A DNA stretch of 64,000 nt from Colwellia psychrerythraea. Its GTDB lineage: Bacteria > Pseudomonadota > Gammaproteobacteria > Enterobacterales > Alteromonadaceae. The DNA lies in the NCBI GenBank assembly GCA_002163005.1, contig MAAF01000025.1:124001-188000 (forward strand). The letters are read 5' to 3'. The notes beneath the pieces are model-generated. The model worked only from the letters and a program-made list of their open reading frames with translations. It had not been told where the DNA came from and did not search any database. Below, in pieces: positions 20,728 to 36,719 of the stretch. The first letter of the stretch is position 1. Each line of letters begins with the position of its first letter. The position numbers were made by a program, and so were the translations under genes.

Positions 20728-21969
20728 TTAATCAACCTTTCTTCTTTTACCACTTTCAGCACGTTTCTTGTTTTCACTTTGAACATAAACGGTATCGGTT
20801 GTAGCCATACTTGCATGACCAAGATCTTCAGAAATATCCTTAAGAGGGCGCCCACGTTCAATTTCCATGCTGGCTCCGGTATGCCTTAACCAATGGGCAG
20901 AAGCTTCTTTCAATTTTAGCGCTTTGTTTTCACCTTCCGATCTACGCATATTTTCATGGGCTTGGTCAAAAACACTTTGTACTAAACGTCGTAAATGTCG
21001 AGATGTCATACCGCCTTGGCCACGGACTTTTTCAACAAGAATTGAATTTTCATTACTTGATGGCAAACCTAACAAACCACGGGAAGCACGATAACGCTCT
21101 AAAAAGGGCAAAAAGTCGATAGGAACCGTGATATCACGTAACTTACGGCTTTTACCAAAGACTTTAAGCCACCAATTTTCATCATCATCCTGCCAAAAGT
21201 GTCCCATTGTTGGGGACCAATTGGGTCGCTCAGATAGTTCTGAAATTCTTAAAAAGAGAGTTTTTAAGGCGGCAATAACAAATAAATTGCGTTCAAACAT
21301 GGAGTTTTCATCAGCCATAGCAACAGCGGTGTCTAAAACATATTGCCATTGGCTAGCGGTTAAACGTTTGATTTCTTTGACTTGAGAATCGATGATAAAG
21401 TGACGGCAATCTTTTTTAGCAATTTGCGCAGGGTTACCAATACAAAAATCTTCAGCCATTAAATAGTTATAAAAAACGATAATGGCGGTAAACATTGATG
21501 AAAGTGTTTGTTGTGATGGACGATATTTCTTCTTATCAATAACGTAGTCAGCTTTTAGACTTTTAGGTGCTTGAATTTTGTATGGAAACCAAAGTTCATT
21601 AGCTGCAGAATAACCATTAGTTATTTTGAAACGTTCCTGATTTGACGTACCAATCCAGTCAACTGGTGGTTGCCAACAAAAGTCAGCATATTCAAGTAAG
21701 TCTGATTTACGTAATTGGTCTATTGGTTTTTTCTTTTCAATGAATGACCATAAAAGAAAACGTTCAACGTCATTTCTAAATCGCTCATAAGTATGTGCAG
21801 ATTTGTTTCTACCAATATAAGTTAGGAAAATCTTTCCCCAATTAAATTGTTCAAGCCACCAGGGTTCATTTGATGAAAATATTTTATCTAACTCAGGATA
21901 GTCATCAAAATCGAAATCACATAAATCAACATATGGTGGATATAAAGGGACAGGCTTATTTAATAACAT
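20728..21969 (-). CDS. Tyrosine-type site-specific recombinase (phage-integrase family)
   Basis: A 413-residue intact recombinase. The N-terminal SAM-like core-binding domain spans about residues 45-160. The catalytic domain has Arg241 (LFLRISELSERP), a Lys in the beta-hairpin near 275, His359 and Arg362 (AHWLRHTGAS), His385 (DLGHASMATT) and nucleophile Tyr395 (TDTVYVQS). The ATG at 21969 is preferred to a TTG five codons upstream. Unlike most island integrases it has no adjacent tRNA or excisionase. It is flanked by a strong hairpin just upstream (22022-22061) and an inverted repeat just downstream (20612-20670), which may be its targets. Confidence 0.85.
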   Translation of the reverse strand: MLLNKPVPLYPPYVDLCDFDFDDYPELDKIFSSNEPWWLEQFNWGKIFLTYIGRNKSAHTYERFRNDVERFLLWSFIEKKKPIDQLRKSDLLEYADFCWQPPVDWIGTSNQERFKITNGYSAANELWFPYKIQAPKSLKADYVIDKKKYRPSQQTLSSMFTAIIVFYNYLMAEDFCIGNPAQIAKKDCRHFIIDSQVKEIKRLTASQWQYVLDTAVAMADENSMFERNLFVIAALKTLFLRISELSERPNWSPTMGHFWQDDDENWWLKVFGKSRKLRDITVPIDFLPFLERYRASRGLLGLPSSNENSILVEKVRGQGGMTSRHLRRLVQSVFDQAHENMRRSEGENKALKLKEASAHWLRHTGASMEIERGRPLKDISEDLGHASMATTDTVYVQSENKKRAESGKRRKVD

Positions 21970-22021
21970 TATTTGTAAAACCAAGCAGATAAGGCAGATG
22001 AAGCTAGTTTAAATCATTATA

Positions 22022-22061
22022 CCCACTATGTCCAATACTGAAGAGTATCGGACATAGTGGG
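22022..22061. repeat. Near-perfect 18-bp hairpin upstream of the recombinase
   Basis: CCCACTATGTCCAATACT pairs with AGTATCGGACATAGTGGG with one mismatch around a GAAG loop. It lies 53 bases upstream of the recombinase ATG. There is no T-run, so a plain terminator role is not favoured. Confidence 0.85.
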
Positions 22062-22313
22062 CTATATAAATGCTAGGGTGGTTGTCCCTGTCGTTATTCA
22101 GATTAGAAAAAGTTTAATAATGGTTTCCGATCATCATTTCATTATACCAAATATTCACTCTGACTTATCCTCGTTATATTGGTGTTTCATGTTTTTCACT
22201 GCGGTGCAGCTGCTCCTCGTTCATCACTTTAAACACCAAATGAATAAGAGTTGATTATTCACAGCTGGTAACGCTACGCATCACCAAGCTGAAAATTAAT
22301 CTAAATAATTTTA

Positions 22314-22421
22314 GTACCAAAAAGTTTATCCAGGAACAACAACCGGTTTTGATTTTGGTACTATTTAATTTTTATAAACATTGCGTTCGTACTTGCCCAA
22401 TAAGCTAATAAAGTACCAAAA
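22314..22421. repeat. Three GTACCAAAA motifs, two inverted and one direct
   Basis: GTACCAAAA at 22314-22322 and 22413-22421 and its complement at 22353-22361. The neighbouring bases are also similar (TTTTGATTTTGGTAC versus GTACCAAAACAAAA). They may bind the nearby recombinase or mark an old insertion edge. Confidence 0.5.
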
Positions 22422-22513
22422 CAAAAAACACCTCCATTTGGAAGTGTTCCCTAAGTTCTTAACTTCTACAGGTGTAGCCGTTATGGCTACCTTTAAATTG
22501 ACTACATTATAAC

Positions 22514-22747
22514 CTATTGACCTGCCATATAATCCAGATTATCACGCTGACTCTTATTTCGTGGCTGTCTTAAATGATCTTTTGTCTTCGATGTAGCTGC
22601 AACATAAACAGCATCAACCTGACCATTTCGAGTCATTCTTTTTGCTATATCTATTGATGTAAATGTACTATTCCCAGCTAATTTAACCGCTGAAATATTA
22701 CCATCACTATCTGCTTTTGCGTCTATAATCTTTCGTTTATCAGTCAT
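22514..22747 (-). CDS. DUF3892 family protein
   Basis: A 77-residue protein with the DUF3892 pattern: KIIDAKADSDGNISAVKLAGN at the start, IDIAKRMTRNGQVDAVYV in the middle and DNLDYMAGQ at the end. GGGG lies 7-10 bases before the ATG. The family is widespread in bacteria, often in accessory regions, with no known function. Here it stands between a solitary recombinase and other small genes. Confidence 0.8.
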   Translation of the reverse strand: MTDKRKIIDAKADSDGNISAVKLAGNSTFTSIDIAKRMTRNGQVDAVYVAATSKTKDHLRQPRNKSQRDNLDYMAGQ

Positions 22748-22982
22748 TATTATCCCCTTAAAGCATTAGTTTTCATTGATATAATCTGCTTTAATGTTCC
22801 TATTATATCAACAACAACTCTATGAGAATATAAAATCCCCCTAAATACCCCCACTGTAAACTATTGAAAAACAATGTATTTATGTTTTAACGCGTATTAA
22901 TATACGATATTAATGAAAATATGTTTCGCACTTCCTCTTCTTTGTTGCTCACTTTAAACAAAAAATAATATATGATGCTCGA

Positions 22983-23255
22983 ATGCTAATAAAAATATTT
23001 TCAGACGAACCTGAATTTCAAGAACGTATCAATTTACTCAGATTGAAATATAAGACAGGTGCAAACTCGAAAGCAGCTAAAGCCGCACTAAATGAGTTTT
23101 ATGAATTAGAAATTTAATGCGAAATATTGCGTGGTCAAAATGAATCGATGTCAGATGAAATTGAAAGGTTAAGAGAATTGCTTAGTCATGTTTCAAAGCA
23201 GAAGTACCACAAGCGATACCATACACGCCCCAAAACTCCACAGTTAACCAATTAA
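22983..23255 (+). pseudogene. Small gene interrupted by an in-frame TAA
   Basis: ATG at 22983 opens 44 codons that end at TAA (23115-23117), but the same frame goes straight on for another 45 codons to TAA at 23253-23255. The two pieces read like one protein: a helical N-part (EPEFQERINLLRLKYKTGANSKAAKAAL), then a coiled-coil-like ESMSDEIERLRELLSHV and a basic tail KQKYHKRYHTRPK. A single C-to-T change of a Gln codon would explain the stop. Alternatively these are two small genes, the second starting at ATG 23148. The product is not recognised; a DNA-binding role is possible from the basic tail but unproved. Confidence 0.5.
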
Positions 23256-23309
23256 AAAAGGGGGCAATAATAACAATCCCCCGTAAACCGCTGAATTTAG
23301 GCTCAAGGA

Positions 23310-23483
23310 TTAGTTATAACCTCGAATATAATTACAGGTGACAAAATCGTTATAAAGTGTCTCGTAAGAGACTTTAAATGGTACAGCCTTAACCTTTAAC
23401 TTCTCATCATCTGTTGATAGGCCGTTATATTGATCTTTGTTAGTTGTCTGCACTCTTTCCTGCCGCAATAGACTCTTATCCAT
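23310..23483 (-). CDS. Small hypothetical protein
   Basis: A 57-residue basic, soluble protein starting MDKSLLRQERVQTTNKD. The start at 23483 is chosen because a perfect GGAGG lies five to nine bases upstream; an in-frame ATG four codons earlier overlaps that site. Good ribosome binding is the main reason to call it a gene. No family is recognised. Confidence 0.5.
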   Translation of the reverse strand: MDKSLLRQERVQTTNKDQYNGLSTDDEKLKVKAVPFKVSYETLYNDFVTCNYIRGYN

Positions 23484-23580
23484 TCGTACCTCCATTTATC
23501 GTTAATTTGCTTACCATAGCGTTGATTATATGCAGTTAATTATGCACCATCAAAATATAATTCGATGGTGCATCGGGTGA

Positions 23581-24789
23581 TTAGTCAAGCAGTCTTACAA
23601 TGACAGCAGTACCCATACCGCCGCCGATGCAAAGTGATGCCAGTCCTAACTTGTTACCACGTTTTTTCATTTCATGCATCAAAGTGACGATGATCCGGTT
23701 ACCTGAGGCACCCAACGGATGTCCTAACGCAATAGCACCACCATTAACATTGGTACGTTGTTTTAGGTTATCCAAATCTTCATCGTGCTCAGCACATAAC
23801 TTCTTCATTACACCTAATGCTTGAGCGGCAAAGGCTTCATTGAGTTCCAGCAATTCGATATCAGAAAATTTAAGATTGGCTTTAGCCAGTGCCAGCTTTA
23901 TTGCGGGCACTGGACCCAGTCCCATTACGGTTGGATCGACGCCTACTTGAGCATAACTCACCAACTCGGCAACAGGATTAAGCTTATGCTTATCAACAGC
24001 TGCCTGCGAGGCAACTAAAATTGCAGCGCCGCCATCATTAACACCTGAGGAGTTGCCTGCGGTCACAGTACCTTCTTTTTTAAAGGCGGCTCGCATTTTA
24101 GCTAAAGATTCTTGTGAGGCATCTTGGCGCGGATATTCATCTGTAGCCACGACAGCAGTCTTGCGGCGCACTGTTACTTCAACAGGCACGATTTCATCGC
24201 TAAACTTGCCGGCTTCTATGGCGCTAACAGCACGGCGTTGGCTTTCTAAGGCAAATGCATCTTGCTCTTCACGACTAACACCGACTTGTTCCGCAATATT
24301 TTCGGCGGTAATGCCCATGTGGTAGTTATTAAAGACATCAGTCAGGCCATCGGTGATCAGCGAATCAGCTAATTCCAGATTGCCCATCTTGCTGCCAAAA
24401 CGAATATCTGACGTTACGATATAAGGGAAACGTGACATGTTTTCACCGCCACAGGCCATCACAAGGTCGGCATCACCGGCCTTGATGCGTGAAGCAGCAT
24501 CCATGACCACCTTCATGCCACTGCCACAAATCATGTTAACGGTATAAGCAGGAATTGTCTCGGGAACCCCAGCTGCAATAGCGGCTTGACGACCAGGTCC
24601 CATGCCCTGCCCGGCAGAAATAACGTTACCCATAATCAATTCATCTAATTGGTCTGGATTGACATTGGCTTCCACCAAGACACCTTTAACGGCTGCTGCA
24701 GCTAGATTAGCGGCCGGTACCGATTTTAATGCTCCGCCAAAACTTCCGATTGCGGTACGTTTTGCTGATACTAAATATACTTTATTCAT
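23581..24789 (-). CDS. phaA: Acetyl-CoA acetyltransferase (beta-ketothiolase)
   Basis: A 402-residue thiolase that condenses two acetyl-CoA to acetoacetyl-CoA. It has the nucleophile Cys in [13 protein letters not shown] (about residue 88), [34 protein letters not shown] with the catalytic His, and the second Cys in [14 protein letters not shown]. Length is standard. It follows phaB by 44 bases on the same strand, so the pair makes (R)-3-hydroxybutyryl-CoA for polyhydroxybutyrate. No polymerase phaC or phasin gene is in the window. ATG at 24789 is used; AGGA lies upstream. Confidence 0.9.
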
Positions 24790-24833
24790 CAATAATTCCT
24801 TTATTAAGTCTGTAAGTGTGTGATGTACTGGGA

Positions 24834-25580
24834 TTAGTGCATGTATTGGCCGCCATTAATATTAAGCGTTTCACCTGTGATATAAGCCGCATGATCGCTA
24901 GCTAGGTAGCTGACTGCCTTGGCAATTTCTTGTGGCATAGCCAGACGACGCAGTGGAATTTGCGCCTTAATAGAATCGAGAATTTCATCTTTCAATACAT
25001 TAACCATAGGTGTTGCCGTGTAACCTGGGGCAATCACGTTGACTGTCACGCCACTACGGGCAGATTCTAGCGCCAATGATTTTGAAAAACCTATCATACC
25101 GGCTTTGGCAGCGGCATAGTTTGCCTGGCCAAATTGTCCTTTAAGGCCATTGATAGAGGAGATATTGATAATGCGTCCGCTGCCTTGCTCACACATCGGG
25201 TAAAAGACAGGCTGGGTAACATTGAACAAGCTGTTAAGATTGGTGTTGATAACATCGTTCCATTTATCAAAAGTCATGCGCTTAAATGCAGAATCTCGAG
25301 TAATGCCAGCATTGTTAACCAAGACATCGATAGTGCCATAGTCCTTCATTACCTGCTTTAATATCTCAACGCAGCTTGTTGAATCGGTGACATCTAGGGC
25401 TAAAAGATTTAGTTTACCCGAGTCAAATGATTCATCTTCAAGCCATTGCATTGCGACATCCTCTTTGCCCGGGCGATGAGTGGCCAGTACTTTATAACCA
25501 TCTTCTAGCAACTGACGACATATCTCCGTGCCAATTCCACCCATAGCACCAGTAACTAAAGCAATATTCATATTTTCCAT
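24834..25580 (-). CDS. phaB: Acetoacetyl-CoA reductase
   Basis: A 248-residue short-chain dehydrogenase reducing acetoacetyl-CoA with NAD(P)H. It has the nucleotide motif TGAMGGIGTE (about residues 10-19), VNNAGITRDSAFKRM, the catalytic Ser in INISSINGLKGQFGQ, YAAAKAG (Tyr-x-x-x-Lys), and VIAPGYTATPM. This block is typical of PhaB. GGAGG lies ten bases before the ATG at 25580, which decides that start over an in-frame Met 14 codons earlier. It is the first gene of the phaB-phaA pair. Confidence 0.9.
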   Translation of the reverse strand: MENMNIALVTGAMGGIGTEICRQLLEDGYKVLATHRPGKEDVAMQWLEDESFDSGKLNLLALDVTDSTSCVEILKQVMKDYGTIDVLVNNAGITRDSAFKRMTFDKWNDVINTNLNSLFNVTQPVFYPMCEQGSGRIINISSINGLKGQFGQANYAAAKAGMIGFSKSLALESARSGVTVNVIAPGYTATPMVNVLKDEILDSIKAQIPLRRLAMPQEIAKAVSYLASDHAAYITGETLNINGGQYMH

Positions 25581-26288
25581 AACGAGCCTCCATAGCTTCT
25601 TAAGGTAATATATTCTTCTCATTATCGGAGCTTAAATTAATTGCCGATATGGCAGTTAGCCCCGATGGTTTATTAAACGCTTATTTACGGTAGACCCTAC
25701 AACTCCTAATATCACTTTCTTCCAGTCTTGCTACTACTTTTCAAAAACCAAGCACGTTTAGTGTGTTTTAAATACAATTCCAGTGCGCCTTTTTTCATCC
25801 TGTGTATAACTTAACAATGATCTGTGACGATAATATGACACTAATTTTTATTTGATAATTTAAGTGTAAGGTGGTCAGGCTAGTCAGTTCAAATGGTTAT
25901 ATTAACGCATTAAACAGCATGTTCTTACTGCGTTGACTACCCCACGACTAACAGTATTACAATTATCATACCACAATGTAACTTATTGTTTTATAGCAAC
26001 TAATTTATTTTGCTATCGTGTTTTAATAATGAATCTGTGATTAGATGGTGCGTAATATCCAGCCGATGCACTATTTAGCACCTGATAAATTGTTGCCTTT
26101 ACGGCAGTAGAATAGTGGTCTTGTACCACTTGGGTATTCACCCCACCATGCTCTATCGTTGGTGAATGGAACACAAAGGGGCGTTGTTTACTCAAACGCT
26201 TATGAAAAATTATCAAAGGGAAAACAATTAGCTCGCAGCGAAAAAGATATAGGAATCCTAAAATGTTTGAGCGGTTCTTAAAAGAAAA
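25581..26288. other. Intergenic stretch upstream of phaB
   Basis: About 700 bases. It must carry the phaBA promoter. A 67-codon frame at 26013-26216 (minus, TTG start, no ribosome site) is protein-like in part (SPTIEHGGVNTQVVQ) but I cannot support it as a gene; it could be a relic. Confidence 0.4.
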
Positions 26289-26726
26289 TCATGGCACTAA
26301 TACAATAGGTATACCGACAGTATGAGCAAGTTTATTTGCAACACTGCCAAATAAAGTATCAACAACACAAGATCTTCCATGACGGCCAACAAACAACATA
26401 ACTGCATGTGTTTCTTTAACTTCTTCTTTTATGATAACTGTTGGGTCTCCCCAAAATAACTCAGTGCTGATGTCCATTGCTACACTGTTATATTTTTCTA
26501 CCAACGGCGTTAATACCTTGGCTCTAACGGATATTTCTTCCGCTTCCTTATCTAATACTGGTGGAGCCGCACCTTCAATAATCATAGGATGTAAATATGG
26601 CCAATCTATGACAGTAACTAGCTTTATTTTAGCATGTGTTTTTTCAGCTAAACGAATTGCTCGATCAGCAGCACGGTCTCCCCATTGGCTTCCATCAACA
26701 GCAACGAGATACAATGATTTACTCAT
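26289..26726 (-). CDS. Universal stress protein, UspA family
   Basis: A 145-residue cytoplasmic protein with one Usp domain. It has the opening YLVAVDGSQWGDRAADRAI, the long helix-strand alternation, and the ATP-binding end VGRHGRSCVVDTLFGS followed by ANKLAHTVGIPIVLVP. The G-x2-G-x9-G-S/T pattern is nearly complete. Such proteins bind ATP and accumulate in stress. It is monocistronic. Confidence 0.88.
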   Translation of the reverse strand: MSKSLYLVAVDGSQWGDRAADRAIRLAEKTHAKIKLVTVIDWPYLHPMIIEGAAPPVLDKEAEEISVRAKVLTPLVEKYNSVAMDISTELFWGDPTVIIKEEVKETHAVMLFVGRHGRSCVVDTLFGSVANKLAHTVGIPIVLVP

Positions 26727-26910
26727 GTTAACTCTCCCAATAACTTATATTCTGAATATGATTTATTTAACCCTCTCGTTATAGCCATAATACGGGTAAT
26801 CAATTCTTTTAAAAGGAATTAATTAATAATTAGACTATAAAAAAGTCACTAAGTTGACCAATTCAGTCACTGTCATCACATCGTTAATATGCCCCTATAC
26901 ACCTGAGCCG

Positions 26911-27123
26911 TTATTGACGCTTTCGATATTTAGGATCTGTCCAACACTTAGGTAATTCTTCTCCTGAAAGAAAGATTAAATCCACTTTATTAAATTCTTG
27001 AGGATCTTGTAATTCTTCACCTACTTGATAACTTCCTAAAACTTTATCGTGAAATAAATTAGTTAAATCACAAAGGTTTTCTACATCTACTATATCGCCG
27101 TTATTTCTATTTTTTAAGAACAT
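26911..27123 (-). CDS. Small conserved hypothetical protein
   Basis: A 70-residue acidic protein with SYQVGEELQDPQEFNKVDLIFLSGEELPKCWTDPKYR, a block I know from a family of short gammaproteobacterial proteins often mislabelled as acetyltransferases; no catalytic fold fits in 70 residues. It is followed on the same strand by no other gene but lies 45 bases downstream of another small gene, so the two may form a unit. Function unknown. Confidence 0.7.
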   Translation of the reverse strand: MFLKNRNNGDIVDVENLCDLTNLFHDKVLGSYQVGEELQDPQEFNKVDLIFLSGEELPKCWTDPKYRKRQ

Positions 27124-27167
27124 ACCAGACTCCTATAGATCAAACGTTGTCTCAGTTTTCTCAATTA

Positions 27168-27386
27168 CTATAATGTGTATATATCTGCATCTGAGCGTTT
27201 ATGCATTTCACCTCGAGCAAGCAAACCATTAATTGCAGTTTGTACTTGATCAATATTATGAGAATACCTTTCATTAGCAAGCCACTGATTACAAATACGC
27301 TGTGCTGAAGCTGATGCTGTTGGGTGAATTGAAAGGTAATTGATAATACCTGTTTGAATTTCACTGTGGATGTCTAACATTTTCAT
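27168..27386 (-). CDS. Small conserved protein, winged-helix-like
   Basis: A 72-residue protein (MKMLDIHSEIQTGIINYLS...). It reads as three helices and a wing: NYLSIHPTASASAQRICNQWL, DQVQTAINGLLARGEMHKR. This layout resembles a small winged-helix DNA- or protein-binding domain. The ATG at 27386 is preferred because GAGGG sits about nine bases upstream. It probably shares a transcript with the 70-residue gene that follows. Confidence 0.65.
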   Translation of the reverse strand: MKMLDIHSEIQTGIINYLSIHPTASASAQRICNQWLANERYSHNIDQVQTAINGLLARGEMHKRSDADIYTL

Positions 27387-27535
27387 AATCACAACCCTCA
27401 TTTTATAGTATTCCTTAAATAAGTTTAGTTTGATTTAGAATATTTTTCCTACGCTCATTACCTTTGTTTTTACATGTTAACTTCTAAGGATTGTAATTAA
27501 GCTCAACACTAATCTATTCACTAAATAAAAATTAT

Positions 27536-27559
27536 AAAAAAGCCTCAATAAAGAGGCTT
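27536..27559 (-). terminator. Intrinsic terminator of the tehB-like gene
   Basis: Read on the minus strand, AGCCTC-loop-GAGGCT is followed by a run of T. It begins about 30 bases after the methyltransferase stop. Confidence 0.8.
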
Positions 27560-27590
27560 CGATAAGAGTTAGAACAAGTTTTGCAAAACG

Positions 27591-28157
27591 TTAGCTAGGT
27601 TTACGCGCCAATATTGTCGCAAACTGTAATTTGGCGCCGTTGTGCATAGTACCTACATCTTCATTGTACTTAATGAATTCCCATCCTTTATAAGTTTCAC
27701 GTAATTGATCCGCTTTTAGGGTGAATGGGAAACCAACAGGACATGGGTGTTCTTCAGTACTCATGGCGCATACAATCAAGTTATAACCACCGGCCACTGT
27801 ACGCTTTTGCATATCGGCAATAATATCATCAACACGAGTTGGATCCATAAACATTAACGTTACAGTACAGCTAATAAAACCATAGTCTTCACTAAGGTTC
27901 GCATTGTTAATGTCGTACACTTGCGCCTTAATATTGTTCATCTTCTCTTCATTAATAATGCTTTGTAGCATACTAATGGCACCGGGATTAACATCTATGG
28001 CGGTTACATTAAATCCGAGTTGGCCAAGGTGAACAGCGTTTCGTCCATTTGAACAACCCATATCTAACGTATCGCACGGCTCAATAATTTTACACGCTTC
28101 TACCACTTCACTGTGTGTAGGGCTTAAGCCGTAACGGCTATTTAGATCAACTACCAT
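27591..28157 (-). CDS. tehB: TehB-like SAM-dependent methyltransferase
   Basis: A 188-residue class I methyltransferase. Motif I is DTLDMGCSNGRNAVHLGQLG (about residues 29-48), motif II VTAIDVNPGAISML, and the tail FPFTLKADQLRETYKGWEFIKYNEDVG matches TehB. TehB methylates tellurite and is a resistance factor; enzymes of this group also act on other metalloids. A lone gene with its own terminator and no tehA partner in the window. Confidence 0.85.
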   Translation of the reverse strand: MVVDLNSRYGLSPTHSEVVEACKIIEPCDTLDMGCSNGRNAVHLGQLGFNVTAIDVNPGAISMLQSIINEEKMNNIKAQVYDINNANLSEDYGFISCTVTLMFMDPTRVDDIIADMQKRTVAGGYNLIVCAMSTEEHPCPVGFPFTLKADQLRETYKGWEFIKYNEDVGTMHNGAKLQFATILARKPS

Positions 28158-28290
28158 GATAACTCTTAATTTTTGAAATGAGGACGATTATCTTACTACT
28201 AATCTTGTCTAATTAACCTTGAATGGTCACGTTTTGATGAGGTAGATCAATATTTATTTTTCTCACTTTAGCCGACATTAATTACAATTG

Positions 28291-29217
28291 TTAATTCAGT
28301 TCAAGCAAGGCTAAAGCGACATTGTGCTTAAGTATATGTTCTTGTTTAAGCGTCTTTCTATAGGTTCGTAGGTTTTCAAATACATTTTGCCAGCGAGCAA
28401 CTTCTTGATCAGGAATAGTGCTTATCTTTTTTTGTAAAAAAGAGATTGAAGCGCCCTGCTTATACCATTCTTGTTCGTTGCCAGATAATTCCATCGTGAT
28501 TTCATTTTTATTTTCAACGGTTAACCAATAATCGGCATCACTAGTCAATGCTATTTCAATTCCTTTAGGGTCTAGATCACTAAAACAAACTAAGGGAATA
28601 TGTCCTTTAAAACGACGAAAAAATTGATAACTGGTGTTAGTTGTTTGTTGTGCTTTAACATCACCTCGATAAAGCCACAAAGCCTTACTTAAATCGATAT
28701 TACTTTTGATAGAGGCTAAATTAATCGCATTGAGATTAGCCATTACAGTAAGGTTTTCAACTAAAACAATGGCCGAGTGTTCAATAGACTTTATCTCTTC
28801 AGCTTTTATATAGATGCCTAACGAAGTTAACGGAGATATTTTGTGGCATTTTTGATTAACGTTTATATCAGTTAAACTATTAATTAAAATGAAATCTTTG
28901 CTAACAGCGTAACTATTTTCTTTTTCATTTCGATTTGTTTCTGCTGTAGCAAGTCTGTCTTCTTTACTTGGATACGGATCATTTCTTATATCAACACCAT
29001 GACTACTCTGCACTTCATTAGTCAGCGCTAAAATATCAGTAAGACTAAACGTCAACCATTGTTTAGTAAGATCAAACTGACCAAAGTGAAACTCTTCATA
29101 CAACCTTGTTGCAAGCGCAGAATTTTTTATTCGTCCGCCGTTGATATTTTTTTGAATGCTTTTTTGAATTTGATGTTGTGCGAACTTATAAAGGGTTTTG
29201 TTTATTGCTGTTTTCAT
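28291..29217 (-). CDS. Toprim protein, JetD/MksG-like (DUF7281-type)
   Basis: A 308-residue protein, last of a four-gene SMC operon. Its C-terminal half has a Toprim core: a Glu in VLVENLTVM (about 154), followed by LWLYRGDVKAQ and the DxD pair in CFSDLDPKGIEIAL (Asp214, Asp216). In Wadjet systems JetD, and in MksBEFG the MksG protein, is a topoisomerase VI-like Toprim nuclease that cuts circular plasmid DNA extruded by the SMC motor. The N-terminal half has no DUF3322 domain that I recognise, and the protein is shorter than classic JetD. Gap to the upstream gene is 69 bases. Confidence 0.65.
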   Translation of the reverse strand: MKTAINKTLYKFAQHQIQKSIQKNINGGRIKNSALATRLYEEFHFGQFDLTKQWLTFSLTDILALTNEVQSSHGVDIRNDPYPSKEDRLATAETNRNEKENSYAVSKDFILINSLTDINVNQKCHKISPLTSLGIYIKAEEIKSIEHSAIVLVENLTVMANLNAINLASIKSNIDLSKALWLYRGDVKAQQTTNTSYQFFRRFKGHIPLVCFSDLDPKGIEIALTSDADYWLTVENKNEITMELSGNEQEWYKQGASISFLQKKISTIPDQEVARWQNVFENLRTYRKTLKQEHILKHNVALALLELN

Positions 29218-29286
29218 TTTGCATTCCTTTGCGACGACACTATAAATTTTACTAAGCGCTTAACTGAGTTTTAATTCGGTTTTCAA

Positions 29287-30558
29287 TTAGGCGCTTAGTT
29301 CGGCTTTTAATTCAGCTCTTAGTTCGATAACTACATCACTATAACCGTAGTTATCTGTAGTGCCTCTTACCGCAACGCCTTTCATTTTTATATTCAAAGC
29401 ATTTTGCTGAGCGCTGGTTAATTTACAATAACAACTAAAGACCAATTCAATCCAGGCTTTGGGTGCAATGGTTTGTGATTGATCAAGCCACATATTTTGA
29501 AACTCTTGATAAAAACTCAGCGCTGAAATAGCGCAGTTATTAATGATCACGCGTTCAAACAATAATTCAGTTTGTTGTTCAAAAAAGTCTTCTTCTGCAG
29601 CAATTCTTTCAATTGGTTTTACGCTGACTTCGCTAGTTTCTCTTGCTTTAATTGGCGTAACGACACTTTGTTTACGCAGTGATTGCACCAATTCAAGTAA
29701 AGGTTGTTCAATATCCGTTTTCTTGGCATCAACATAACTTTTAAGCGGCATTGGTGGTGCGTATTTTAATGTTTCAGGTAAATTTGGTAACTCAAAAAGA
29801 TTATCATCCAAGCTAAATTCTGGGTGTTTACGTAAAAAACGCGCCATATTACGTAATTGGCTGGCTTGTTTTTCATCACGACGTAAGCGAAACAAACTAA
29901 TGCGCATGTTATCAATGATCAAACGCAGCTTAGGTAATATTTGGTTATACCAGTAAACAAAACTCGTTATTTTACGAGCAAACTCATTTGGGCAAGCCAG
30001 CCAATCAAGCCATTCATAACAGTCATGTGGGTCTATCTGTTGCAGCTCATTTAGTAATTTTTGCGCATGAGATAAGTAACGTTCATTTTGGCGTATTTTG
30101 TTAGACAAGCTACTTACGAAACCAAACTGACTGACAATAGCAAAATGCATTGTGTCTAAGTTATTGTTTAAGCTATCTTTTGTTTCATAGAGTAAATCAT
30201 CGAGTTGATCTAGATAATACTCGGCATCTTCTTGCTCTTTAGACGTAATGGCTAATTGATAATCGATAACGACTTCATCAATTGCATCAATCACTTTACC
30301 CATATCGGTAAGTTGTCGATAGCTTGATTGTTTGCGCATCAGTCGATTTAACATGCGCTTAAGATCGGTTGTTACTCGATACTCGCTAGGAGAATCATCA
30401 GGTCTGATCAAGCCAGATTTATGTAACAAACTAAGGGTGTTAGCATCTTGATCGTCACTTGCTATCGAGCCATAAACATAAGCATTGGCAAGCAATTCAT
30501 TGTACGCACCAATTTGTCTGAGTAAGCTTGCTACCTGATTTGAATCAAAACCAGCCAT
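29287..30558 (-). CDS. MksF/JetA-like kleisin subunit
   Basis: A 423-residue mostly helical protein. The N-terminal part (about residues 1-70) reads as a winged helix (IGAYNELLANAYVYG, LLHKSGLIR, YRVTTDLKRML), the middle is long amphipathic helix and the end is a small helical/strand domain. Size, position next to an SMC ATPase and a MksE-like gene, and the layout fit a kleisin of the MukF/MksF/JetA type. There is no single diagnostic motif, so the call leans on context. It starts 25 bases after the MksE-like gene. Confidence 0.6.
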   Translation of the reverse strand: MAGFDSNQVASLLRQIGAYNELLANAYVYGSIASDDQDANTLSLLHKSGLIRPDDSPSEYRVTTDLKRMLNRLMRKQSSYRQLTDMGKVIDAIDEVVIDYQLAITSKEQEDAEYYLDQLDDLLYETKDSLNNNLDTMHFAIVSQFGFVSSLSNKIRQNERYLSHAQKLLNELQQIDPHDCYEWLDWLACPNEFARKITSFVYWYNQILPKLRLIIDNMRISLFRLRRDEKQASQLRNMARFLRKHPEFSLDDNLFELPNLPETLKYAPPMPLKSYVDAKKTDIEQPLLELVQSLRKQSVVTPIKARETSEVSVKPIERIAAEEDFFEQQTELLFERVIINNCAISALSFYQEFQNMWLDQSQTIAPKAWIELVFSCYCKLTSAQQNALNIKMKGVAVRGTTDNYGYSDVVIELRAELKAELSA

Positions 30559-30583
30559 TAGAACTCTCCATTAAGGCTTGTCA

Positions 30584-31207
30584 TTAAAAAAGTAACTCAT
30601 CTTGTTGGCTTTTTTCTTGTTCAGGTAAGCTGATCAGCTCGGCATCATTTAAAAACTCAATCAGTAAATAAATTAAGTCAAACCGTGCGGTGGCATAATA
30701 TCGACTGCTACCGGTATTTTTACGGACAAAATAATGCATTTCTTCAAGCTTTTGAAAAACCATCACTAATTGCTCACGCGTTTCAGTTTTATTGGTTTTG
30801 AAAGGCTTTATTGATGTCAGTCTACGTAATTGCTCACTCAAGGTTTGATCATGTTCAAAGGGTTCGAATAGCTCATTGATATTCAAAACAGATTTAGCAC
30901 GAATAGGTAAATCAGCTTGCGTTGCCGTTAACAGTAAATCTAAAAATTCGACTAAAGGTCTGAAGGTGCTGCGCATTTCACTAAATAAAATACTGAGTTC
31001 GTGATGGTTATTTTCATCGACCTGATTAAATGTACAGTAATAAGCATCGGCGCTATCAAGGTAGGTTAGTTTTCTATCTAAATTAGCTAAAAAGTCATTC
31101 ACTTTGTCATTATGACTTTCAGCTTTTAAGTACAAATATTCGGCTTCATGCGCCGTTTGACAGATAACTGCGCCACAAAGTAGCTTTTGAATACTTTCTT
31201 TAAACAT
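30584..31207 (-). CDS. MksE/JetB-like subunit
   Basis: A 207-residue helical protein (MFKESIQKLLCGAVICQ...). It has a C-terminal winged-helix-like section, REQLVMVFQKLEEMHYFVRKN followed by YYATARFDLIYLLIEF, as in MksE/MukE dimers that bind the kleisin. The start is the ATG at 31207, overlapping the SMC stop as ATGTTTAA, with AGGGGAG upstream; an earlier in-frame Met lies inside the SMC gene. This overlap implies translational coupling. Confidence 0.62.
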   Translation of the reverse strand: MFKESIQKLLCGAVICQTAHEAEYLYLKAESHNDKVNDFLANLDRKLTYLDSADAYYCTFNQVDENNHHELSILFSEMRSTFRPLVEFLDLLLTATQADLPIRAKSVLNINELFEPFEHDQTLSEQLRRLTSIKPFKTNKTETREQLVMVFQKLEEMHYFVRKNTGSSRYYATARFDLIYLLIEFLNDAELISLPEQEKSQQDELLF

Positions 31208-34200
31208 GACTTGGCTCCCCTGCTTTATCTTCTTGTGCACTTGTTACTGTTTGATTACGTTGCGCGAGTAATTCGTCTAAACGAGATTGTGGAATATCTG
31301 CATGATAAATTTTGTTATCTTTTAACTTATAATGACGGTGATATAAGGACAAAATATGGCGATCTGTTGATGGAGATGCAGATAACATACTGATATGGTT
31401 GTCATTAAACATTTGTAATAACAGGTCAATATTTTCTGCTGCCAGTTCGCCAAGCTCATCAACCGGTAAAATTATTTGGCTAGCATGTTTGCTGTCACCA
31501 CGTAACATCGCTAATAAACCGGCGAATAAAGACAACATAGCTAGATAAGATAAACCTGTTGAGCTCACTTTTTTAAGCTGCTTAGCATTACGCGCGTGTT
31601 TTACTTGGCCTTTTTCGACAATAGTAAATTCTAAATCAAACAAGTTATTGTGCGCTAATACAAAACCTTCGTTGGGTAAGTAACTTGCCAGCTTTTGCAT
31701 AGCGAATACTAAATCATCGGGCACATCCCCCAAACCATCACGCAATTGATCTTTATATAACTCAAACACTTGTGCAAATTTTTGCAAAGGACCCCAGTAA
31801 TCTAGCTCTTCTTGCTTCATTACTGTGGTTACACTGATATCGGCTAAGGCCTCAAAATGTGCTAACGCAGTCACTTTAGTGGATAAACGTTTACCAATTT
31901 GTTTGATACGGCGACCAAAGTTTTCAATGTGCTGATAAAACTCGTTAATCATGGTGGCATTAACAGTAACCAGTTGATAAGTACTTTGCTGCTTTTGTTC
32001 GGCACTATTTAACAATTCGCTAATAGGCTCGCGATACTTAAATAAAGCTTTTGCACCTGAGAAGTTGTCGTTATCAAGCAGTAGTTTTTGCCAGTTTTCA
32101 TAAAGCTCACTGCCAGAGTGATCTTTTCTAAAACGTTCACTAAAGGTATTTAGTTGCGTGGTCAAACGTTTTTCAATGGTTTTAAATTGTTGATAAAAAT
32201 CATGACAAAAACTGACGGTTAAATCCGCTTGGTTTGCTGGTTCTTGCTCAGATAGTTCACTATCAATCGCTGACATTTCACACAGGCGTTTATTATCATT
32301 GAGTTGAACGAGTAAATCATCAGTTGCTTGTTTTTCTTGATTATTTTTTCTGATTAACAGTTTTAAGTCATTAATTTTTGCTGTCAGTTCAATATTACTG
32401 TCTTCATGATTTGACTCTAGATTACGCTTGGTAATTTTTCGGTTTTGGTTTTCTTCAACCAAAGCATCACGGTGACAGTAACGTTCTTTAATAAAACTTT
32501 GATAGTCTCGTGCTTTTTGGGCAAACACTGCACATTGCTGAAGGTCTTGTTCTAAAAGCACGCGCTTAGCAATACTTTTATCGACTTCACCTTCAGGATC
32601 AAGATGTTTAATATCACTGGTTTGCTGCTTTTTAAGTTCAGCGGTACGTTGCTTGGCATTAGTTTTTAATGTGACTAGTTGTTCAGATAATAATGTTAAT
32701 TGATTATCTCTATCACTTTCAACCACCATGCATTTTTCTAATTTATCATTAGTCAATTCATGCAATTGCTCCGCTTTATTTTCTTCAAAGCTGTGCTGCT
32801 TTTTATCAAGGGTTTTTAATTGTTGATTAAAACTTTGTAACTGTGTCTCAATCGTTTGGCGATGAGCTTTAATGGCTAGCTGTTTTTTTACTACCAGGTT
32901 TTCTTGTTGTGTTTGCAACTGACCTAAAGTTAATTTTTTTTGATTTACACTTTGTGTATGTTCACTCACGCTAATTTTTAACTGATTAATCTCTTTAGCT
33001 ATAAATTTAAGATGTTCATCAAGCTGAGAAATTTTATCTGTTTGTGTTTGTAACTTAGTTTCTATTATTTGGCGCTTTTCTCGTAGCTGCGCTTCGTCTA
33101 AAAATAATGAATCGTCACAAGGCAGTTGTTGTAAATCTATCGATAAACCATAAAGACTTACCGGAGTATTGTTACTCTCTAGCCACTGCGGATTTAAATC
33201 AGTACGCGAAAGTTGCTCTGTAGTAAGTAAACGACCAATAGTATTTTGCCAATCAGCGGCTTGAGGTTCGTTATTTAGGTAATGGTGCAAAGAGTCAGCT
33301 TGTGGCAGCAGTTGTAATTCAACTTGTTGATAATCTTGTCGTAATTGTTCAAGATAACGATTTGCTTCACTGCGCAGGGTTAATTGCTGATCTTGTCGTT
33401 TATCTAATTGATATTGCTGTTTTTGCAGGGTTGACTCGTGTTGCAGCAATTGATTATAACTTTGCTGTGCCTGAGATAACGCTTGTATGTTTTCTTCAAT
33501 ATCACTCGTTAACTGTGTAGATATTACCGGCTGTGTTAATTGCTGTTGAGCACTACTTAATTGATGTTGTAAGTGTTGCTGATCTTTTTGTAGCTTCAAC
33601 TCTTCTTTATGAAGTTGGGCATTAAGCGATTGTTCTTGTTGATGAAAAACTTCATTGATATGTGCTAGTTGCACATTCGATTGGCTAGTAATTAGGGCTG
33701 ACTTTTCTTTATTACTGCTGAAGGCTTTAAGTTTTTCTACTTCAATTTTTTGAATCAGCTTATCAAACTTTTGGCCTATTTTGGTGATATTACCTTCAAA
33801 AGCATCAATAACGGCAATAACTTCATTAAGCTCCGCTTGAATTTGTGGTGCTTGCTCGGCCTTGATTTGATAACTACTGGCATCATCGTCATCATAGTTA
33901 AGTTTGTCATCATCGAGTAATTCAATTTTACTTAAATCGGCTTCGATTTTGGCATTGAGATCTGATTTAGCTTTTTGATATTGTTCAATGGTATTGGCTA
34001 ATTCAGTCTCAAGTTTACTGCGAATTGCGATACTGCTTTTTTTAAGCTCGTCTCGTTGTTGTTGCTTTACTTCAAGGCGACCTTGATGCGCTATTGTTTC
34101 CGCATGAAGATGTTGTAACTTATTGACTAAGCTAGCAAATGCACTGAAATCGTTTTGCCAAACCGAAATTTTATCAGCTACCTTTTTAATGGCACGACTA

Positions 34201-34931
34201 GCCTGGATATCAGCAAGCCAGCCAGTTATATCGGCTTTATTTAAACTGAGTTGCTCTTTTTCATCGCTGGTATTACGGGCAAGATGATCACTGGCAATCG
34301 CCACTAACATGCGTTTAACTGCTTCAAAATCGAGATTTTTTTCTATAGTACCGTTGATTACTTTATCAATGTGCGGGCAAGCTTGTTCACTAAAAGAAAA
34401 ACGATTTTGCAGTATTCTTATTTCTTTATGTTTACGGCCACTGCGCAAATTTTGAATAACTTGACGGTATTTATCAATGCCTAAAAACTTTGAACTTTCA
34501 CTACCGATATTACGGTAGTTTCTCTCTATTTCATTGATAGTAAAAGGCTTAGCTTTGCTACCTTGAGTACTGGAAATAAAATGCTGACTGTCATAAGCAC
34601 CATCAATAAATTTAAAATGCACACCTCTACCATCACTGGTCGCTAATACTTGGCATTTCTGGCCAAATGGTCTTGCATATTCGTACACTAAAATACTGGA
34701 TTCGCGTGGTAAGTAAAAATCTGCAAAGTTTTTTGCTTGATCAACCTTACTGACAATATCACTCGGTCGCATACCGTAAAAAAGTGGCAACAAGCGCATT
34801 AATGAGGTTTTACCTGCGCCGTTAGTGCCTTCAAGTTGAGTGTGGCCAGTTAAATCAAGCTCGTTGACTTGTCCTTGCCAAAAACTGTCAATAATAATAA
34901 TGCGTAGCAGCGAATAGCCATGTTCTGCCAT
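31200..34931 (-). CDS. SMC-like condensin ATPase, MksB/JetC type
   Basis: A 1243-residue SMC-family motor. Walker A is GTNGAGKTS (residues 35-43); the two ATPase halves are split by long coiled coils (about 240-500 and 600-900) rich in Gln/Leu. The C-terminal half has KKVSSTGLSYLAMLSLF in place of the LSGGQ signature and Walker B ILPVDELGEL. This layout, with a short ATPase head and very long coil, matches MukB/MksB/JetC rather than canonical Smc. It is the first of four co-directional genes. SMC motors of this class extrude DNA loops; in Wadjet they detect small circular DNA. Confidence 0.75.
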   Translation of the reverse strand: MAEHGYSLLRIIIIDSFWQGQVNELDLTGHTQLEGTNGAGKTSLMRLLPLFYGMRPSDIVSKVDQAKNFADFYLPRESSILVYEYARPFGQKCQVLATSDGRGVHFKFIDGAYDSQHFISSTQGSKAKPFTINEIERNYRNIGSESSKFLGIDKYRQVIQNLRSGRKHKEIRILQNRFSFSEQACPHIDKVINGTIEKNLDFEAVKRMLVAIASDHLARNTSDEKEQLSLNKADITGWLADIQASRAIKKVADKISVWQNDFSAFASLVNKLQHLHAETIAHQGRLEVKQQQRDELKKSSIAIRSKLETELANTIEQYQKAKSDLNAKIEADLSKIELLDDDKLNYDDDDASSYQIKAEQAPQIQAELNEVIAVIDAFEGNITKIGQKFDKLIQKIEVEKLKAFSSNKEKSALITSQSNVQLAHINEVFHQQEQSLNAQLHKEELKLQKDQQHLQHQLSSAQQQLTQPVISTQLTSDIEENIQALSQAQQSYNQLLQHESTLQKQQYQLDKRQDQQLTLRSEANRYLEQLRQDYQQVELQLLPQADSLHHYLNNEPQAADWQNTIGRLLTTEQLSRTDLNPQWLESNNTPVSLYGLSIDLQQLPCDDSLFLDEAQLREKRQIIETKLQTQTDKISQLDEHLKFIAKEINQLKISVSEHTQSVNQKKLTLGQLQTQQENLVVKKQLAIKAHRQTIETQLQSFNQQLKTLDKKQHSFEENKAEQLHELTNDKLEKCMVVESDRDNQLTLLSEQLVTLKTNAKQRTAELKKQQTSDIKHLDPEGEVDKSIAKRVLLEQDLQQCAVFAQKARDYQSFIKERYCHRDALVEENQNRKITKRNLESNHEDSNIELTAKINDLKLLIRKNNQEKQATDDLLVQLNDNKRLCEMSAIDSELSEQEPANQADLTVSFCHDFYQQFKTIEKRLTTQLNTFSERFRKDHSGSELYENWQKLLLDNDNFSGAKALFKYREPISELLNSAEQKQQSTYQLVTVNATMINEFYQHIENFGRRIKQIGKRLSTKVTALAHFEALADISVTTVMKQEELDYWGPLQKFAQVFELYKDQLRDGLGDVPDDLVFAMQKLASYLPNEGFVLAHNNLFDLEFTIVEKGQVKHARNAKQLKKVSSTGLSYLAMLSLFAGLLAMLRGDSKHASQIILPVDELGELAAENIDLLLQMFNDNHISMLSASPSTDRHILSLYHRHYKLKDNKIYHADIPQSRLDELLAQRNQTVTSAQEDKAGEPSHV

Positions 34932-34969
34932 AGTGTAACCTTAGAGAAATTTAGTGAATGTCGATAATG

Positions 34970-35836
34970 TTAATGAAGAGGTTTTACTTTCAAAACTAGC
35001 GCGGGATCAATTTTGACATTGAACCAGTTTATACGCCAGTCTAAATGAGGTCCGGTTGCCCTGCCACTTTTACCAACTGCGGCGACTACTTGCCCTTGCT
35101 CAACAGTATCACCTTGTTTTACATAAGAATTACTTAGATGTAAAAAGGTAGAACTTACGCCATGACCATGGTCAATAATCATGGTTCCACCCGAGTAAAA
35201 CATATCGGGTACCCAAAGTAATACTGTACCTGATGCCGGAGCTTTAACCGGATCGCCAGTGTTACCAGCATAATCTAAACCAAAGTGTGGGTTTTTAGGT
35301 ACGCCGTTATAAACACGTTGGCTACCATATACGCCTGTGATTGTCCCTTCAATGGGTGGAATAAAACCTTGGGCAAAATAGTTGAGTGAACTGGCAACTT
35401 TTCGAGCTGTTTTAACCTGCTTGCTGTCTTGTCTCGCTCTGGCAACCGATTTTGGGTTGGGTTGCATGATGCTTTTTTTAATACCTTCGATACGCTGAAT
35501 ATTATAACTGCGTTTTTCGGGCGTTAATGTTTTCTCTACCCGATCACCATTAACCGAGGTGATCACTAATTGATAGCTTTGTTTGTCATCACGGGAAAAG
35601 CCAAAGGTATAATCACCGAATTTTGAAACGGTGATCGCTTTACCATTTAAGGACACTGTATTTTGCGCTAATGTTTTACCAACCAGTAAACCGCCCTGCT
35701 TAATTTCACCGGTTAATGCTATCTGTTCTTGCGCTGCCACTGCTTCAGAGCTGGCAGTAAAACTAGTGATAAGTGCTAAGGAAATTAAGGTTTTGCTTAA
35801 TGTTTTAGCTAAAGTATTGTTTATCGGGTTAACCAT
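34970..35836 (-). CDS. M23 family metallopeptidase (LytM domain)
   Basis: A 288-residue exported peptidase with a signal peptide (ISLALITSFTASSEAVAA) and a C-terminal LytM domain. Zinc-site residues are all seen: HFGLDYAG (His, Asp), and GHGVSSTFLHLS with the H-x-H type pair, then GPHLDWRI. It would cut peptidoglycan peptide bridges in the periplasm. The ATG at 35836 overlaps the stop of the QueD-like gene (ATGGTTAA), indicating coupling. The SMC operon starts 38 bases downstream, so read-through is possible. Confidence 0.85.
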   Translation of the reverse strand: MVNPINNTLAKTLSKTLISLALITSFTASSEAVAAQEQIALTGEIKQGGLLVGKTLAQNTVSLNGKAITVSKFGDYTFGFSRDDKQSYQLVITSVNGDRVEKTLTPEKRSYNIQRIEGIKKSIMQPNPKSVARARQDSKQVKTARKVASSLNYFAQGFIPPIEGTITGVYGSQRVYNGVPKNPHFGLDYAGNTGDPVKAPASGTVLLWVPDMFYSGGTMIIDHGHGVSSTFLHLSNSYVKQGDTVEQGQVVAAVGKSGRATGPHLDWRINWFNVKIDPALVLKVKPLH

Positions 35837-36719
35837 GAACAATTGCCCCTTTAGCAACGCCTTCATAAGCAATAACTTTCACTTCGTTATCTGCCAGTTC
35901 GCTATGTTGTGCTTTTATTTGTCTTAAAATAAAGTCTGCTAATAATTCTACCGTTGAATCACAATCAACTACATCAAGTACTTTGCTATCAACGGCGATA
36001 TCAAATCGACCTTGAGGTGCATGGTAACTAAAATATTGGTGATCGGGTGTTAAATTGTTTATTGCTTGAGCTGATAGCTGAATATCGTTGACAGAAATTC
36101 TGTCGGCTTCACTGGCAATATAAATATCTTTCCAGCGCTGACACCACGCAGCTTCTAACTTAGCGCTTCGTTCGCCATCAACTAAAATTTGAATTTTAGA
36201 ACGGTGACCATGCGCAATACGTTGACAATTACCATCATGTAACTTTAAGCCATGAGTATAATGATAATAATCCGTTGGAATATTTTCAGGACGCAAGACA
36301 AGTGTCAAACCTTGTACGTTATCTGGCAAGTGCGCCAAAATAATAGCCGTTAAGTGTTTAGTCACCTCAGGTATCGTGATGGTTAAACAATCGATTGAGG
36401 CAAAAGCACACGCTGGAGATTGTAAATAGTAACTTGCTGCATCACTGATAAAGTCTATCGTTTGATGACCGTCATTATGCGGCGATTCTGCCAAGGTTAA
36501 TGCTTGCTCTTGAATAGGTAATAACAATTTATGGTCAACAGCATCATCAATAATGGCTTTGATTTGCTTTTTTACTACGGCAAAATCAAGCACCATACTC
36601 ATTTCGTTTAACGATCCATCGAGTAACACATCCACAATCCAGCTCTCACCAACTATACCGCGCTGTTTACACAGGTATGAGAAATCAATAACGGTAAGAT
36701 CATCTACAAATAATTGCAT
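35829..36719 (-). CDS. 6-carboxytetrahydropterin synthase-like protein, tandem domains
   Basis: A 296-residue protein of the QueD / 6-pyruvoyl-tetrahydropterin synthase fold. It is about twice the normal size, with a first domain around GIVGESWIVDVLLDGSLNEM and DHKLLLP, and a second around RIAHGHRSKIQILVDGE and HQYFSYHAPQGRF. The usual zinc-binding His set is only partly visible in the first domain, so one half may be structural. It is coupled to the M23 peptidase gene. Its reaction in vivo, whether in queuosine or folate/pterin metabolism, is uncertain. Confidence 0.7.
   Translation of the reverse strand: MQLFVDDLTVIDFSYLCKQRGIVGESWIVDVLLDGSLNEMSMVLDFAVVKKQIKAIIDDAVDHKLLLPIQEQALTLAESPHNDGHQTIDFISDAASYYLQSPACAFASIDCLTITIPEVTKHLTAIILAHLPDNVQGLTLVLRPENIPTDYYHYTHGLKLHDGNCQRIAHGHRSKIQILVDGERSAKLEAAWCQRWKDIYIASEADRISVNDIQLSAQAINNLTPDHQYFSYHAPQGRFDIAVDSKVLDVVDCDSTVELLADFILRQIKAQHSELADNEVKVIAYEGVAKGAIVHG

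Follow-up and report, generated by a model that had tools for sequence, protein, structure and literature searches.

What does an operon that joins an SMC-type ATPase to a candidate nuclease do in Colwellia psychrerythraea: does it destroy plasmids, organise the chromosome, or both? The locus lies in a window of 64,000 nucleotides (contig MAAF01000025.1, positions 124,001 to 188,000), which is the whole stretch of DNA analysed, and had been described in an earlier note, made from the sequence alone, as a four-gene SMC-Toprim operon that may be either a distinct defence branch or a host condensin with a nuclease. The results point to something of both, the genes being mobile and Wadjet-like and encoding, in some cold-ocean hosts, the sole SMC complex of the kinds searched. 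It appears to be a new offshoot of Wadjet, a group of systems that destroy plasmids, and it probably encodes a four-subunit SMC-nuclease complex, separate from Wadjet types I-III, which would restrict plasmids when it holds its fourth subunit, G, and whose core would have a nuclease-independent role.

The operon in the window

The four genes are co-directional on the minus strand, in the order SMC-E-F-G:

31200..34931, minus strand: SMC-type ATPase of 1243 aa (Pfam DUF3584), with a putative MukB/MksB-like role
30584..31207, minus strand: E, KITE-like (MukE/JetB-like) protein of 207 aa, by its PADLOC JetB match
29287..30558, minus strand: F, kleisin-like (MukF-like) protein of 423 aa, by Foldseek
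28291..29217, minus strand: G, candidate Toprim nuclease of 308 aa (Pfam DUF7281), with the motif SDLDPKG and conserved E154, D214 and D216

The ATG of E at 31207 overlaps the SMC stop codon by 8 bases, as ATGTTTAA, and opens a frame of 207 aa, while an upstream GTG start gives the longer listed E ORF of 218 aa; 25 bases separate E from F and 69 bases separate F from G. The coupled or short junctions described for the two middle genes are therefore real, and the Walker A (GTNGAGKTS) and Walker B (PVDELGEL) motifs of the SMC, as well as the Toprim DxD (SDLDPKG) of the fourth protein, are present as the earlier note had read them. Its placing of the SMC gene first extends well beyond the window: among loci holding SMC, E and F, the order SMC-E-F was found in all 37 that were read (17 from Colwellia, including the window, and 20 chosen from other genera of the same order, Enterobacterales), with G, where found, downstream of F. 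Promoter and terminator scans returned chance-level matches only. The four-gene operon is genuine, far beyond chance, since its SMC matches DUF3584 over the whole length and G matches DUF7281 at 1e-40.

The SMC, E and F subunits

The SMC matches PF12128 (DUF3584) with 1105.5 bits over profile positions 1-1191 (curated cut-off 31 bits), and residues G35, N37, G40, K41, S1124, G1126, D1158 and E1159 are invariant in 46 SMC sequences, two of which are repeats. The MukB N-terminal domain PF04310 is absent among its Pfam matches up to E 10 and gave no match in the window's genome, and PADLOC-DB 2.0 returned no family at E up to 10, so no JetC model is matched. Searches of the PDB gave nothing useful with the single protein and, with a profile of 25 SMCs, coiled coils and P-loop matches, with neither MukB nor JetC above the coiled-coil noise. 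In hhalign comparisons of SMC head profiles, MukB and canonical SMC tied, with only 22 and 36 columns aligned, around the P-loop. NCBIfam holds no relevant family for any of the four proteins.

E and F matched no convincing Pfam family, and PDB searches with their profiles (A5 and A2) gave nothing useful. E shows a weak match to PADLOC JetB (2.7e-5, residues 2-54); of five E relatives compared with the JetB models, one (L250) matches four models, weakly, two (L248 and L185) match one each and two (L254 and L190) match none. F gave no PADLOC-DB 2.0 family at E up to 10, and thus no JetA match, and its predicted structure, a model with a pLDDT of only 71, is nearest to MukF and then to JetA in Foldseek. 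These likenesses support the reading of the middle genes as E-like and kleisin-like. By profiles and predicted fold, SMC, E and F have the composition of a MukBEF/MksBEF-like motor, which would assemble into a complex and extrude DNA loops.

The Toprim protein G

G matches Pfam DUF7281 with 139.7 bits at 1e-40 (curated cut-off 27 bits), and has no Pfam match to JetD_C or the other JetD domains; PADLOC-DB 2.0 again returned no family at E up to 10, JetD included. In predicted fold it most resembles topoisomerase VI-A, MksG and JetD. When a profile of 18 G relatives was run against 177,635 PDB sequences, Topo VI-A and MksG ranked first, weakly (E 0.13 and 0.16), the glutamate of the VEN motif aligning with both and the DxD with that of Topo VI-A; PDB searches with G as a single protein and with the G profile A3 gave nothing useful. 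One plasmid-borne relative falls narrowly short of the cut-off for TOP6A-Spo11_Toprim, at 6e-5, and two plasmid-borne relatives come near JetD_C or DUF2399, both below cut-off. E154, D214 and D216 are invariant in 35 G proteins (two of them repeats). The Toprim fold proposed for the 308-residue protein thus agrees with both its predicted neighbours and its invariant acidic residues, and G is most likely a Toprim protein of the Topo VI-A/JetD/MksG type and a candidate nuclease, which would cut DNA.

Plasmid and phage copies

Of 45 plasmid records matching the SMC, six were examined, together with the single phage record. The complete set in the order SMC-E-F-G is present on five of the plasmids, from Pseudomonas, Marinobacter, Rhodoferax, Acinetobacter and Vibrio, of which the first and the last are each near 0.9 Mb; the sixth, from Citrobacter, holds only a short SMC piece adjoining an IS element. 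Dolichospermum phage Dfl-JY45, a cyanophage of 209 kb, likewise encodes a complete SMC-E-F-Toprim set (L254 5971-12326). In these five plasmids and the phage each gene was recognised with profiles built in this analysis, the fourth gene being DUF7281. Three further records were found through G. A Vibrio vulnificus record has the four genes in order; in an Enterobacter hormaechei plasmid the SMC is cut by an IS element, and Tn7-like and CBASS genes are adjacent; in a V. campbellii plasmid SMC and F are annotated in pieces. The E. hormaechei and V. campbellii copies (L009, L010) look broken. Two scans of viral contigs with single proteins, which detect close relatives only, found none. The transposition and CBASS genes beside one copy, and a plasmid copy lying about 7.6 kb from BrxL, are the company that a system devoted to defence would be expected to keep.

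A variable site near the terminus

In Colwellia a variable site close to the replication terminus carries the operon as cargo, as follows from the shared borders, an empty form of the site in one complete genome (G324) and a GC-skew maximum nearby. The borders in the window are:

34970..35872, minus strand: M23 peptidase (Pfam), the conserved border
20731..21969, minus strand: tyrosine recombinase of 413 aa (Pfam Phage_integrase, 5.8e-9), the other border

The M23 gene adjoins the SMC gene in all 19 other Colwellia loci and also stands at the empty site, and the same four genes precede the operon in 19/19: a NA37 nucleoid-associated gene (presumably yejK), an amidohydrolase gene (which we take to be pyrC), PTPS and M23. 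Beyond the operon, the recombinase was found in the window and in 9 of 16 other complete-core Colwellia loci (counting G304), and not in the stretch read at the other seven, among them all four from outside the main clade. In G324, which has no operon, 663 bases separate M23 from the recombinase. The variable interval spans 20731-34970 in the window and 449945-452716 on contig C1 of G324 (L292), where it is empty; some 12 kb away from this empty site is a Lamassu LmuABC set (L291 16141-19561). Such behaviour as variable cargo fits a purely defensive system.

Over the 500 kb of G324 that were read, the cumulative GC-skew maximum falls about 4 kb from the empty site, and on the G304 contig a skew maximum lies about 24-29 kb from the operon; the window itself has no clean switch at the operon, and its cumulative skew peaks at the left end. 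No dif-like site was found in the window; in a scan that also took in four 20-kb loci, the G304 contig and 500 kb of G324, the one match had 7/28 mismatches and was not near the site. Coordinates of four complete genomes, in which the operon has three different gene neighbourhoods, place it almost diametrically across from recF: measured from recF, its fractional position on the circle is calculated as 0.505 and 0.514 in two Colwellia and 0.499 and 0.539 in two Psychromonas (L174, L164, L181, L183). The terminus is a known acceptor of foreign DNA, and the position may reflect either a function there or merely that acceptance.

A tree of six proteins around dnaA, dnaN, recF, gyrB and glyQS (46 genomes, 2804 columns, eight genomes less than 80% filled) gathers 16 DUF3584 carriers into one Colwellia clade of 17 (support 0.88). 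The clade's lone non-carrier, G323, is an assembly of 430 contigs with 87% completeness and fills 37% of the alignment columns. Only 4 carriers occur among the other 22 Colwellia, a patchiness that also suits defence. Compared with the window, these four have SMC identities of 85-91%, against 83-94% within the clade, whereas their recF is 64-69%, M23 56-59%, dnaA 84-87% and gyrB 88-91% identical; the high SMC identity beside diverged recF and M23 suggests transfer, again as expected of a defence system, and the four copies were likely acquired by transfer or by replacement at the same site. The window's genome and G326, which are close, differ at synonymous sites by 0.98 in SMC and 0.21 in pyrC, a more than fourfold gap that is a sign of allelic exchange.

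Condensins in the order

Across 148 genomes of the order, DUF3584 was found over cut-off in at least 57, DUF7281 in 34, true MukB in 49 and ScpA in 72; DUF3584 counts are lower bounds, the best four candidates per genome (best six in Colwellia) having been scored. DUF3584 and MukB nearly exclude one another, occurring together in 1 of the 57 carriers listed, against MukB in 48 of 91 non-carriers, which argues against a role in defence alone, although the pattern runs along family lines and the Fisher tests on this census ignore kinship. ScpA is also present in 41 of the 57 listed carriers, a point against the explanation that we prefer. Fifteen of these carriers, including the window's genome and eight listed genomes of the Psychromonas family, have neither ScpA nor MukB, and 17/148 genomes matched none of the three.

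Neither ScpA nor MukB was found over cut-off in the 39 Colwellia genomes, and canonical SMC, recognised as an SMC_N match in a reading frame of roughly 1170 aa, in 0/39 Colwellia and 0/4 Psychromonas among the matches listed from at most 50 candidates scored per genome; canonical SMC was seen in 3/3 controls, and ScpA in 21/21 other genomes of the Colwellia family. With DUF3584 in at least 20 of the 39 (three of these loci being cut by contig ends), the DUF3584 SMC is the sole one found of the kinds searched (beside ScpA, MukB and canonical SMC) in 20 Colwellia, which lends some support to a condensin function. Matches to MukB in G191, G192, G266, G273, G287 and G304 were set aside, with 20-25 bits over 45-65 positions, those of G266 (Psychromonas family) and G287 being nominally above the 23-bit cut-off; three ScpA matches (G241, G256, G268) were set aside as below cut-off.

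DUF3584, ScpA, MukB and canonical SMC are all unmatched in the remaining 19 Colwellia (G291, G292, G294, G296, G297, G301-G303, G306, G309-G311, G313, G316, G317, G319, G321, G323, G324). That these are mere search misses was rejected, the F profile, with all candidates scored, having given 17/39, with the other three carriers cut by contig ends. Since the operon is missing from 19/39, where the searches turned up no replacement, the core is not generally essential in Colwellia, and these genomes are the strongest point against essentiality.

Loss of G and selection on the core

Among 17 complete Colwellia cores, G adjoins F in 12, is displaced by 20.8 kb in one (G304) and was not found in four, as judged from a stretch of up to 20 kb read at each locus. 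G304 was a candidate for absence of G, rejected when the gene was found on the same contig. Two of the four keep remnants of G in place: in G320, 16 residues from its end (E 5e-4), and in G315, 22 residues (E 3e-7). The core is intact in both genomes; the remnants are probable deletion scars, and the losses may in part be recent. At the 20 loci from other genera, G lay within the stretch read in 12 and not in 8, and in P. ingrahamii about 5 kb of other genes separate F from G. A DUF7281 match over cut-off is missing in 24 of the 57 listed DUF3584 carriers, spread over eight families. G thus appears to be an optional part of the system, and the description of the locus as one four-gene unit, correct in the window, proves too narrow, since G is optional and the whole is cargo of a variable locus.

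In 12 Colwellia pairs, pairwise dN/dS is 0.04-0.12 for SMC, 0.01-0.04 for E and 0.04-0.06 for F, beside 0.04-0.10 for pyrC and 0.04-0.16 for M23, so that purifying selection on SMC-E-F is about as strong as on pyrC; for G it is 0.14-0.20 (seven pairs). In three Colwellia pairs where G adjoins F in neither genome, the core values are 0.011-0.064, one of these genomes having G displaced and the pair tests including time before the loss of G. Synonymous sites are saturated in the G-less pairs of other genera, which yielded no usable dN/dS. A core that is not decaying without G is unlike a pure four-part defence system that has lost its cutter.

Proposed function and alternative explanations

The closest functional parallels are probably Wadjet and MksBEFG, and the complex would fall outside the three described Wadjet types. 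With G, the complex would most likely act in the manner of Wadjet, extruding DNA and cutting small closed circles that it can reel in fully. Such plasmid restriction is suggested by the Wadjet-like make-up, by mobility and by a nuclease that evolves fast yet keeps its acidic residues unchanged. SMC-E-F would in addition have a nuclease-independent role, suggested by the retention of the core where G has gone, by purifying selection and by the distribution of the genes. This role would most likely be chromosome organisation where no other recognised condensin is present, for which the retained core and the lack of any other searched condensin speak. Against this explanation weigh the SMC profiles, which bring the motor no closer to MukB than to canonical SMC, the pLDDT of 71 of the F model, the Colwellia genomes without the operon and the cargo-like behaviour of the site.

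A Wadjet-like anti-plasmid system with no housekeeping role, whose G-less copies either are in decay or draw on a nuclease gene at another location, would account for the neighbouring defence and transposition genes, the variable site with its empty form, the signs of transfer and patchy distribution, and the displaced G of G304. We nevertheless regard it as unlikely: the G-less cores show no decay, carriers in eight families gave no DUF7281 match over cut-off, and MukB and DUF3584 almost avoid each other, though along family lines. That SMC-E-F organises the chromosome and G too acts there, for instance near the terminus and not on plasmids, would explain the position opposite recF, the skew maximum near the empty site of G324 and the lack of ScpA, MukB or canonical SMC matches in Colwellia, but is very improbable. 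Plasmids and a phage carry these four genes as well, the terminus is a known landing place for foreign DNA, half of the Colwellia genomes have no copy of the operon, and the SMC of other families is scattered, for example at about 0.15, 0.28, 0.70 and 0.87 of single-contig genomes (G150, G171, G247, G147; raw contig coordinates).

A bolder and rather doubtful conjecture is that Psychromonas and the C. psychrerythraea clade rely on this complex, nuclease included, as their working chromosomal condensin, SMC-ScpAB having been lost, a Wadjet-like motor replacing it and the nuclease being discarded in one species after another. If true, it would be a surviving link from plasmid defence to chromosome folding, with the scars still visible. 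One motor family is found together with its nuclease on plasmids and in a phage, together with the nuclease in chromosomes where it is the only SMC complex of the kinds searched, and in chromosomes from which the nuclease has been deleted. Close relatives within Colwellia that differ in the presence of G, or of the entire operon, allow the link between defence and chromosome folding to be tested in a single genus.

Comparison with known systems

No description of a DUF3584 SMC-E-F-G family was found in the open-licence PMC literature, as far as the retrieved parts of its papers go. There, no paper mentioning DUF7281 and none combining MksBEF with Colwellia or MukBEF with Psychromonas was found, the DUF3584 papers are not about Wadjet by title or abstract opening, and the listing for Colwellia and condensin held nothing relevant.

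Wadjet JetABCD unites a kleisin, a KITE-like protein, an SMC and a Topo VI-A-like Toprim protein in one operon, and all four roles are matched here, the kleisin and KITE roles resting on the pLDDT-71 model and weak profile matches. Its order A-B-C-D differs from SMC-E-F-G, which holds in the window and 36/36 other loci, and in PADLOC-DB 2.0 the JetA, JetC and JetD profiles are unmatched by F, SMC and G, JetB alone being matched, weakly, by E. The earlier comparison with JetABCD and MksBEFG therefore stands for composition, whereas a variant of JetABCD or MksFEB is not what the profiles indicate, and the operon adds a Wadjet-like family that PADLOC-DB 2.0 misses except weakly at one subunit. 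According to one review, three Wadjet types are described and some Wadjet systems are plasmid-borne (PMC10586767).

MksBEFG of Corynebacterium glutamicum likewise has a fourth subunit of the Topo VI-A type, with the published order mksFEBG (PMC10123090), against SMC-E-F-G here. In the C. glutamicum control genome JetD_C matches and DUF3584 does not; JetD_C is unmatched in the window's genome. In that species MksBEFG is reported to co-exist with SMC-ScpAB and to act on non-chromosomal DNA only (PMC7083940).

MksBEF of Pseudomonas aeruginosa is, by description alone, the same kind of SMC complex (MukBEF/MksBEF). MukBEF, which is not known to have a nuclease subunit, supplies the nearest predicted fold for F, and its MukB is near-exclusive with DUF3584 in the order, whereas the MukB domain PF04310 is missing from the SMC here. 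For P. aeruginosa MksBEF a chromosomal role is reported, and MksBEF is described as typically found alongside SMC-ScpAB or MukBEF (PMC7485682). The same review of Wadjet speculates that MukBEF and MksBEF were once defence systems (PMC10586767).
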